Shown one piece after another: positions 41,897 through 52,589 of a DNA stretch of 64,000 nucleotides. The stretch comes from Ignavibacterium sp. (lineage in GTDB: Bacteria; Bacteroidota; Ignavibacteria; Ignavibacteriales; Ignavibacteriaceae). The translations under genes and the position numbers were made by a program. The DNA lies in contig JAVSMP010000001.1 of NCBI GenBank assembly GCA_032027145.1, forward strand, positions 3,539,116 through 3,603,115. The letters run 5' to 3'. The number at the start of each line of letters is the position of its first letter. Position 1 is the stretch's first letter. A model generated the notes under the pieces. The model was not told where the DNA came from. It did not search any database and worked only from the letters and a program-made list of their open reading frames with translations.

Positions 41897-42577
41897 ATGA
41901 AAAACTTATTATTGGTTCTCTCGGTTCTTTTCCTTTTCGGATTAACTTCATGTACAGATGTAATGGACAACTCATTACCAACCAACCCGGTTTTAGAGAA
42001 AAATGGTAATGACAATTTATTTTCTCCATCTTCACATCCTTATCCATATCTGTTTAATTTTAATAAAATCGAAGGAGTTAAGTATTCAAGACTCAGTTTA
42101 GATGATAATGCAATAGAGTTATACTTACCACCTGTCTCTCCCAAATATTTGCATTTTTATGTAATCGTTAGTTATATAAACGATAAACCAACAAGTATGT
42201 TCTTTATAGATAAATTTAATGATGGTTCATTTATCATCTCTGGTTTAAATGCTTCAGAGGTACTTGATGTAAGTGTTTATGGTTTTGGTTCTAGAAATGA
42301 TATTGCTTCACCTTTCTCAAATAATACTATGATGAAAGAAATTACCCATATTTGGGGAACAGATGGAGAGAATTTGAAAGTTGAGTATTCTGGAGTCCGC
42401 GCATCAAATTTTAAATATGTTTTTGCAGAGATAGAAACAAGAGTAGGAACACACTTAATATTCTTACATAAACCTGTATCACAATCTTTCTCAATTCCAG
42501 GATATGGTAAAGGAGCTGTTGACCTTAAATTATATGGATATCAAACTTATTTTGACAATGCAGATTTAGCGAACTAA
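41897..42577 (+). CDS. Hypothetical lipoprotein
   Basis: 226 residues. The signal peptide ends in the lipobox LTSC with Cys19 lipidated, so the protein is probably surface or periplasmic. The body is rich in beta-strand-like stretches (alternating hydrophobic residues, for example LHFYVIVSYIN and KYVFAEIET). I recognise no domain or catalytic motif. It stands alone on the plus strand, with its own terminator, flanked by genes on the other strand. Confidence 0.8.
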   Translation: MKNLLLVLSVLFLFGLTSCTDVMDNSLPTNPVLEKNGNDNLFSPSSHPYPYLFNFNKIEGVKYSRLSLDDNAIELYLPPVSPKYLHFYVIVSYINDKPTSMFFIDKFNDGSFIISGLNASEVLDVSVYGFGSRNDIASPFSNNTMMKEITHIWGTDGENLKVEYSGVRASNFKYVFAEIETRVGTHLIFLHKPVSQSFSIPGYGKGAVDLKLYGYQTYFDNADLAN

Positions 42578-50757: not shown

Positions 50758-51006
50758 ATGAGAGAAATAAAAGTAAAAATCGAAAATCCGTTATCTGAGC
50801 TTATCAGCGATGATATATTTGATCTTCTTGATTCTCACGGTTTAATTGATGAGAAAGCTGTCAGAGATTATCAAATAAGGAAAAAATTTAAACATCTTAG
50901 ATCCAGTAAATTGAGTGCCGGAGATGCAATTGATGCTATCCGTGCTGAATATCCATATTTACAATTTGATACTATAAGAAAAATTGTATATCAAATCAGT
51001 AAATAA
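50758..51006 (+). CDS. Small hypothetical protein, possible helix-turn-helix
   Basis: 82 residues from the ATG at 50758-50760, which has AGGAG nine bases upstream; the GTG one codon earlier is less well placed. No family is recognised. The C-terminal half, SAGDAIDAIRAEYPYLQFDT followed by IRKIVY, has the look of two helices that could bind DNA. The protein is charged and soluble. It lies between two structured-RNA candidates and 15 bases before the promoter of the second. Confidence 0.7.
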   Translation: MREIKVKIENPLSELISDDIFDLLDSHGLIDEKAVRDYQIRKKFKHLRSSKLSAGDAIDAIRAEYPYLQFDTIRKIVYQISK

Positions 51007-51021
51007 TTAATGACATATAAT

Positions 51022-51054
51022 ACTTGACAATTAACATTTATGAATTTATTTTTA
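51022..51054 (+). promoter_or_regulatory. Promoter of the small RNA at 51058
   Basis: ACTTGACA (51022-51029; TTG at 51024-51026) is followed by TATTTTTA (51047-51054). TTG to TATTTTTA is exactly 20 bases, matching TTG-N20-TAnnTTTG except for the final A. Transcription would start at about 51058-51061, the first bases of the outer stem of the RNA. Confidence 0.6.
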
Positions 51055-51057
51055 ATT

Positions 51058-51139
51058 CGACTCTTTCAAAGGGTTCTCCCCTGCCCTTTGATGGAAATGA
51101 GTCGGGCCCGGTGAATCCCCCTCACCGGGTTTTTATTTT
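51058..51139 (+). ncRNA. Small structured RNA with two C-rich loops and its own terminator (unassigned)
   Basis: About 80 bases. Outer stem CGACTC (51058-51063) pairs with GAGTCG (51099-51104). Inside it CAAAGGG (51067-51073) pairs with CCCTTTG (51084-51090) around loop TTCTCCCCTG. The terminator follows: CCCGGTGA (51107-51114) pairs with TCACCGGG (51122-51129) around loop ATCCCCC, then five T, A and four T. A promoter lies just upstream. Both loops show runs of C, which in other small RNAs bind G-rich ribosome binding sites. It does not contain the SRP, 6S or tmRNA core sequences I know. It may also be a leader that controls the DUF3098 gene, whose ATG is at 51156. Confidence 0.6.
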
Positions 51140-51155
51140 AAAATAAGGATGCATT

Positions 51156-51443
51156 ATGGCTAAAAAAATTAAAAAGAAGAGTGCTAAGACAACTGCAAAG
51201 TCATTACCTTCACCATTTAATATTTATTGGGAAAGAACCAACTATCTGCTTTTTGGTCTAGGATTATTATTAATCGTTTTAGGTTTTTATTTTATGAGTC
51301 AGGGAACCTGGGACAGCACATCTTCATTAGTTGTATCTCCAATACTTCTATTTCTTGGCTTTGTGGTTGTTATTCCGGCTTCGATTCTTTATCGAAAAAA
51401 GACCGAGGCAATCAACACTGATATTGTTGAAACAGAAAAATAA
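51156..51443 (+). CDS. Small membrane protein, DUF3098 type
   Basis: 95 residues. A Lys-rich N-terminus (MAKKIKKKSAKTTAKSLPSP) is followed by two hydrophobic segments (about residues 30-48 and 60-78) and a charged tail. The pattern matches the DUF3098 family of Bacteroidota and relatives, whose function is unknown to me; in some of them it lies near cell-division genes. AAGGA lies six bases before the ATG. It starts about 16 bases after the end of the small RNA. Confidence 0.7.
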   Translation: MAKKIKKKSAKTTAKSLPSPFNIYWERTNYLLFGLGLLLIVLGFYFMSQGTWDSTSSLVVSPILLFLGFVVVIPASILYRKKTEAINTDIVETEK

Positions 51444-51467
51444 TTTAATAACTCAAAAATATTTGAT

Positions 51468-52589
51468 TTGGGAAAATTAAGTTTCGATCAACTAACGGAT
51501 TTATACGTTTTAATTTCCGTTGATAGAATTGGACCAGCAAAGGTGAGAAACCTTCTGGCTAAATTCAAACACATTTCCAACATTCTTGAAGCAAATATTT
51601 CTGATCTGATGGAAACTGATGGTATAAGTAAAGAGCTGGCTTCAAGGATCAGAAAGTCTTCATTAAACAAAGATTCAACAAGAAAACAATTAGAAAAAGA
51701 ACTGAAATTTCTTGACAAGATTGGTGGTCGAGTAATTACTGTCTGGGATAATGAGTTTCCACAACTGTTAAAAAAGATTTATGACCCACCGATAATTTTA
51801 TATCTAATGGGGAATTTTGATGAGATGGATAAATACTCAGTTGCGGTTGTTGGAACAAGACAGCCAACCACCTATGGAAAAATTCAGACTGAGAAAATTG
51901 TTGCAGATTTGGTTCGGCAAAACATAACGATTATTAGCGGATTAGCTAGAGGAATTGATTCTGCTGCTCATTCTTCCGCAATAAAAAACAATGGAAGAAC
52001 GATTGCTGTTATCGGATCCGGATTAGATATTATTTATCCTTCTGAAAACAAAAAACTATTTAATGAAATAAAGGAACGCGGAGTTATTATCTCTGAGTTT
52101 CCACCCGGAACAATTCCAAATGCAGAAAATTTTCCCAGACGTAACAGAATTATTTCCGGATTAGCTTTGGGTACATTAGTAATAGAAACAGCAATTACCG
52201 GCGGTGCAATGCAAACTGCCAGACTTGCATTGGATCAAAATCGTGAAGTATTTGCTGTTCCAGGAAATCTTGGTATTAAGCAATCCGAAGGAACAAATAT
52301 GCTGATTCAGCGGGGTGAAGCTCAGTTAATTAAAAATGCTGAAGACATATTAACCGGATTAGAATTGAAGCTTAAACCTGAAGTTGGAAAAAATATTCCT
52401 AAACATCAAAAAGATCTTACAATCTTTGAGGAAAAGATTTTAAACAGTCTTATCAATGAACCACTACATATAGATAAGATTGCAGAAAATACTGATCTAA
52501 CCACTTCTGATTGTTTAGTTAATTTACTTTCTCTGGAGTTTAAGGGATTAGTTAAACAATTGCCCGGTAAAATGTTTATGTTGATGTAA
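51468..52589 (+). CDS. dprA: DNA processing protein DprA
   Basis: 373 residues from a TTG at 51468-51470. The preceding in-frame codon group contains a stop at 51441, so no ATG is available. DprA binds single-stranded DNA entering in transformation and loads RecA. N-terminal helix-hairpin-helix (ISVDRIGPAKVRNLLAKF) leads to the Rossmann fold with AVVGTRQPTTYG, SGLARGIDSAAH, GSGLDIIYPSEN and FPRRNRIISGLA. A winged-helix tail ends the protein. It lies 24 bases after the DUF3098 gene. Confidence 0.95.
   Translation: MGKLSFDQLTDLYVLISVDRIGPAKVRNLLAKFKHISNILEANISDLMETDGISKELASRIRKSSLNKDSTRKQLEKELKFLDKIGGRVITVWDNEFPQLLKKIYDPPIILYLMGNFDEMDKYSVAVVGTRQPTTYGKIQTEKIVADLVRQNITIISGLARGIDSAAHSSAIKNNGRTIAVIGSGLDIIYPSENKKLFNEIKERGVIISEFPPGTIPNAENFPRRNRIISGLALGTLVIETAITGGAMQTARLALDQNREVFAVPGNLGIKQSEGTNMLIQRGEAQLIKNAEDILTGLELKLKPEVGKNIPKHQKDLTIFEEKILNSLINEPLHIDKIAENTDLTTSDCLVNLLSLEFKGLVKQLPGKMFMLM

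Follow-up and report, generated by a model that had tools for sequence, protein, structure and literature searches.

A multicopy family of putative small RNAs with C-rich loops in the class Ignavibacteria, linked to DUF3098 genes

A compact RNA unit upstream of DUF3098

The window, a stretch of 64,000 nucleotides from the genome of an Ignavibacterium sp., contains at 51022-51140 a compact unit situated between a gene for an uncharacterized 82-amino-acid protein and a gene for a DUF3098 membrane protein (Table 1). All the elements that had been proposed for this unit from inspection of the DNA (promoter, closing stem, hairpin, and terminator) were found again, with two adjustments. The promoter, originally described as a TTG-N20-TATTTTTA pair, is the same element but is better read as a sigma70-type TTGACA-17-TATTTT promoter; a single match of this kind is not unusual in the AT-rich DNA of the window, where 27 promoter-like matches were found against 26.5 expected. 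The inner hairpin is present with nine pairs instead of the seven that had been counted. The six-pair outer stem was recovered as five pairs, GACTC/GAGTC, or six if C51058-G51104 is included, and the terminator has the anticipated eight-pair core and run of T residues, extending to 11 pairs when flanking G-C and G-U pairs are added. Both loops do carry C runs, UCUCCCCU in hairpin 1 and CCCCC in the terminator. The predicted fold has a z score of -4.48, with none of 200 dinucleotide shuffles being as stable; the MFE and centroid structures agree, and no alternative antiterminator fold was seen for the window RNA.

Table 1. Positions of the features considered in this study, numbered from the first nucleotide of the window
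Feature	Position	Strand	Remarks
Candidate target gene, predicted lipoprotein	41897-42577	+	AGGGGCTCATT-ATG ribosome site, one of four GGGG sites; predicted duplex about -9 kcal/mol
Gene for 82-aa uncharacterized protein	50758-51006	+	Just 5' of the RNA; candidate target in family f2
Promoter, sigma70-type	51024-51052	+	-35 TTGACA 51024-51029; 17-nt spacer; -10 TATTTT 51047-51052
Small RNA, ~82 nt	51059-51140	+	5' end predicted from the promoter, 3' end from the terminator
Outer stem GACUC/GAGUC	51059-51063 with 51099-51103	+	5 pairs; encloses hairpin 1 (51059-51103)
Hairpin 1 (51066-51091)	51066-51074 with 51083-51091	+	9 pairs; loop UCUCCCCU at 51075-51082, proposed seed 1
Intrinsic terminator	51104-51140	+	8-pair core 51107-51114 with 51122-51129; T-rich tail
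Terminator loop AUCCCCC	51115-51121	+	Proposed seed 2
DUF3098 membrane protein gene	51156-51443	+	Pfam PF11297, 31.5 bits (cutoff, 25); begins 15 nt past the RNA

The usual order in Ignavibacteriaceae is the 82-aa gene, the RNA, DUF3098, EutN/CcmL, and dprA. In the window genome, dprA comes directly after DUF3098 (51443-51468); in many relatives, the two are separated by an EutN/CcmL shell-type gene. The 82-aa gene precedes the RNA in Ignavibacteriaceae and in families f2 and f3 (families beyond Ignavibacteriaceae are labelled f2, f3, and so on), and LolE/LolD-type genes are often found 5' of the RNA in other families. The 82-aa protein, with a mean column identity of 72% over 18 relatives, had no sequence match in Pfam, NCBIfam, or the PDB; its AlphaFold2 model is all helical (pLDDT, 88) and returned no convincing PDB fold match.

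Distribution and conservation of the RNA

Ignavibacteria are frequently found in anammox reactors, sediments, and hot springs. We found no description of small RNAs from this class in the open-access literature, where DUF3098 was mentioned in a single paper. When 59 genomes, comprising the window genome and those of its nearest relatives, were searched at the DNA level, clear homologs emerged, several per genome in some cases, and covariance models were built from 38 (R1) and 78 (R2) copies. R1 recovered the RNA from 75 of 80 Ignavibacteriaceae genomes, and from 49 of 49 with completeness of 90% or more and contamination of 5% or less. With R2 it was recovered from 143 of 391 class genomes, many related families being represented, and a sample taken across the phylum showed it to be nearly confined to Ignavibacteria, with one weak match outside. 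That match (L298, G671:C45:51668-51752; E value, 8e-6) has neither DUF3098 nor the 82-aa gene nearby. Up to nine copies occur per genome (nine in G008), and two or three are closely spaced in G064, G082, and G012 (L085, L086, and L087). The window genome has two, the second being diverged, intergenic, and in possession of the loop UCUCCCCC (G000:C1:636630-636710; L049 1501-1581). Most of the named contigs bearing the RNA come from metagenome-assembled genomes whose labels are Ignavibacteriaceae, Ignavibacteriales, or, less precisely, Bacteroidetes, and no phage-borne copies were present in an IMG/VR scan. The window RNA is best regarded as a member of a multicopy family of the class Ignavibacteria, situated at the locus where conservation extends furthest.

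The compensatory changes that the original prediction had proposed seeking in relatives were found in all three helices. An alignment of 95 copies has two-sided changes at 22 of its 24 pairs and conforms to the structure in 96.6% of cells, although this alignment was fitted to the model, which favours the structure; none of 500 shuffles reached the observed covariation, and slid structures, serving as a control, were only 23 to 55% paired. Our first, unfitted alignment (MAFFT) gave compensatory changes at 16 of the 24 pairs. In the 95 copies, two-sided changes affect every pair of the outer stem (5/5; 91% of cells paired) and of hairpin 1 (9/9; 99% paired). Among unpaired bases, conservation is highest in the C-rich loops, which are better conserved than the covarying stems: apart from its first position, the hairpin 1 loop (CUCCCCU) is 94 to 100% conserved, and the terminator-loop CCC 95 to 100%; the model includes these loops, so that retrieval favours copies keeping them, but f2 copies without loop 1 were still found. 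Paralogs keep the same C-rich loops.

Upstream sequence was long enough to be examined in 138 copies; 115 of these contain a match of at least 9/12 to TTGACA-16/18-TATATT, and 105 of the matches end 4 to 6 nt 5' of the RNA, whereas 19% of shuffled controls reach such a match at any position. A terminator hairpin with a T-rich tail closes each aligned copy. Class-wide covariation and the conserved promoter give strong support to a discrete structured small RNA, and the sequence evidence likewise speaks strongly for the window unit as a genuine small RNA equipped with a promoter and a terminator of its own. We infer that it is transcribed as a discrete RNA that would start near 51059 and end at that terminator.

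As had been anticipated, the RNA could not be assigned to a described family: none of 4227 Rfam families matched the window copy, or the copies in L217, L226, L214, and L049, at the gathering threshold. Relaxed thresholds gave weak matches only, all far below threshold, the top one being RsaE (RF01820) at 26.4 bits, where the curated threshold is 79; we therefore place the window RNA outside RsaE/RoxS.

G-rich ribosome sites as candidate targets

Ribosome sites in the window genome are of the AAGGAGA type and seldom contain GGGG, which was present at those of 4 of 333 sampled genes. Conservation of the GGGG was followed for three such genes, pepF, A2M, and MurE. Our target statistics rest on genome samples of 400 to 464 kb, and the background in two f1 genomes was 5 GGGG sites among 625 sampled genes. 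Against this, the ribosome site of pepF contains GGGG in 13 of 34 Ignavibacteriaceae genomes (10 of 30 orthologs and 3 of 4 further readable ones) and in all five readable genomes of the same genus, where the flanks have otherwise diverged; Fisher's test gives a P value of 1e-14 but ignores shared ancestry and was applied to a gene picked after its GGGG was seen. Duplexes between the RNA loop and the pepF site in the five same-genus genomes have predicted energies of -7.7 to -15 kcal/mol, compared with -3 to -4 kcal/mol for DUF3098. No GGGG was present at pepF in f2 where the site was readable. On this pattern of sites, pepF would be the most likely target within Ignavibacteriaceae. In one genome, G071 (C12:227665-230016), this best of the candidate targets has an RNA paralog ~1.1 kb away.

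Other genes gave mixed results. A gene for 8-oxoguanine deaminase beside one RNA paralog has GGGG in 4 of 4 cases. A2M was rejected as a target, GGGG being kept in only one of six, and MurE, with 3 of 19, was set aside as weak. Exact 8-mer complements of loop 1 (AGGGGAGA) are no more frequent near ATG in the window genome than in the control (eight in each), none falls at a plausible start, and a search before ATG in six genomes revealed no own-genome regulon of such sites. Four AGGGGAGAAATTGTTGTAACAATG-like matches lie within 14 kb in one genome (L287, G024:C1:1619161-1633342), each before short open reading frames only, in an arrangement that resembles a dispersed repeat.

Family f2 differs at both the RNA and a neighboring gene. 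Its locus, between the 82-aa gene and DUF3098, keeps the promoter, stems, and terminator, but hairpin 1 no longer has a C-rich loop; in the terminator, the loop sequence is UCUCCCCCC-AA or close to it. With this C run kept though loop 1 is lost, a C-rich motif is therefore retained in at least one loop. In f2, GGGG(G) occupies the ribosome site of the 82-aa gene in 11 of 17 cases against 8 of 317 in the f2 background, a difference noticed after the fact, and the f1 and f3 versions of the gene have it in 0 of 57; here too, Fisher tests on GGGG ignore shared ancestry and concern genes chosen after the GGGG was seen. The proposal that the C-rich loops pair with G-rich ribosome sites thus survives in part: GGGG is kept in pepF and in the f2 82-aa gene, but the exact complement is unenriched and A2M and MurE gave negative or weak results.

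Mode of action and relation to known RNAs

Whether the RNA acts in trans or serves DUF3098 had been left as alternatives. A profile search placed DUF3098 downstream of 81 of 140 distinct copies, and the gene follows the RNA at 20 of the 21 class-level primary loci sampled, which represent most other families, even though the upstream genes differ. When 25 other-family loci were checked singly, DUF3098 was present at 20; the five exceptions comprise a second f19 copy (L226) and weaker matches in four families (L211, L212, L213, and L215). By this record of synteny, the link between the RNA and DUF3098 is real and old. Since the gene begins a few to ~30 nt past the terminator across loci, it is probably reached by read-through, and the window copy is likely also to be a read-through leader of DUF3098. 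The other 59 copies are differently placed: 32 face a convergent gene, 13 have a codirectional open reading frame within 120 nt, and 12 have a farther one. The 32 copies facing a convergent gene cannot be leaders, and the RNA therefore most likely acts in trans.

We accordingly favor, as the probable explanation, a multicopy trans-acting antisense RNA that silences mRNAs with GGGG ribosome sites, the window copy doubling as a DUF3098 leader; this was one of the options originally put forward, and it is preferred because many copies cannot be leaders. The RNA, starting at ~51059 and ending at its own terminator, would expose the loops UCUCCCCU and CCCCC, which would base pair with GGGG at the ribosome binding sites of a restricted group of mRNAs and prevent these from being translated, and DUF3098 would be made from the window copy upon read-through of the terminator. 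We infer the pairing, the repression, and the read-through from sequence features. The main rival, which we consider unlikely, is a cis-acting attenuator, mainly a DUF3098 leader, in which a protein or G-rich RNA bound to the C-rich loops controls read-through and the extra copies are dispersed derivatives. The constancy of DUF3098 behind differing upstream genes speaks for it, as does the short gap, which leaves scant room for another promoter, but it does not sit well with the 59 copies elsewhere, with the agreement of MFE and centroid structures on a fold that offers no antiterminator, or with the retention of the same C-rich loops by paralogs. Trans-acting and leader roles can coexist. Of the originally suggested riboswitch-like leader, the leader link stands (20 of 21 primary loci) and the ligand sensing gains no support: there is no conserved aptamer-like core apart from the two C-rich loops. 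A ligand-sensing riboswitch is not supported, the only conserved unpaired bases being those of the C-rich loops, no antiterminator being seen, and 32 of the 59 copies away from DUF3098 facing a convergent gene.

Strictly conserved loops within covarying stems, a copy number of up to nine, and tandem copies would also suit an RNA whose C-rich loops capture and titrate an RNA-binding protein, with the copies acting by dosage; the loss of one loop in f2 tells against this, it gives no reason to expect the GGGG preference seen in pepF and in the 82-aa gene, and we rate it somewhat below the attenuator. A terminator-like hairpin does sit between genes, and an ordinary terminator of the upstream gene, accompanied by chance hairpins and a chance promoter-like match, would account for it; this is very improbable, being refuted by the covariation of all three helices and at odds with a promoter at a fixed distance and copies in unrelated places. 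Least credible of all is a small protein-coding gene: a mechanical open reading frame of 40 aa does run from a TTG (51024-51146), but single-base insertions and deletions occur among the copies, in loops and linkers, and variation tracks base pairing rather than codons.

If the RNA does silence mRNAs in trans, its mechanism would be of a known kind. The family itself, with the DUF3098 link, the multiple copies, and the relocated f2 loop, is new with respect to Rfam and the open-access papers searched. sX13 of Xanthomonas has three C-rich loops and an unstructured 5' region, and its CCCC/CCCCC loop motifs serve to repress mRNAs with G-rich motifs near the start (PMC3771888). The Ignavibacteria RNA is likewise short, with stem-loops bearing 4C/5C motifs, but two of its loops are C-rich, one of these being the terminator loop; it also has a closing outer stem and is present several times per genome, and no homology to sX13 was found. 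In RsaE/RoxS of Staphylococcus and Bacillus (RF01820), C-rich regions pair with G-rich targets (PMC8216469); the likeness is one of working mode only, in that unpaired C-rich motifs could pair with G-rich ribosome sites, and the present RNA differs in belonging to another phylum and in being multicopy. HPnc5490 (RepG) of Helicobacter, which represses tlpB, is similar in having a loop that contains UCCCCCU (as cited in PMC3771888). Within the wider Bacteroidota group, FopS of Bacteroides is a paralogous small RNA family with its own promoters that acts on mRNA starts; it is ~65 to 70 nt long with an A/T-rich 35-nt seed region, and no C-rich loops are reported for it (PMC11697453). The Ignavibacteria family shares multiple copies and own promoters with FopS but has C-rich loops, and its window member is ~82 nt long. 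By analogy, the view we favor is that the RNA works like sX13 or RsaE/RoxS without homology to either. It offers a natural test of whether C-rich-loop regulation, known from Xanthomonas, Bacillus, Staphylococcus, and Helicobacter, had a separate origin in another phylum; the present analysis supplies a ready covariance model, a defined (predicted) transcript, loops to mutate, and pepF and the 82-aa gene as candidate targets.

A more far-reaching and somewhat doubtful possibility is that the RNA is both an attenuated DUF3098 leader and a multicopy trans-acting antisense RNA, whose seed could shift from the loop of hairpin 1 to that of the terminator as a neighboring gene acquires the matching G run. 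If true, RNA seed and target site would evolve together, and f2 would be a natural test of how the seed of a small RNA relocates between hairpins. One f2 genome also has three weak tandem matches to the RNA (G056:C1:78589-78874).
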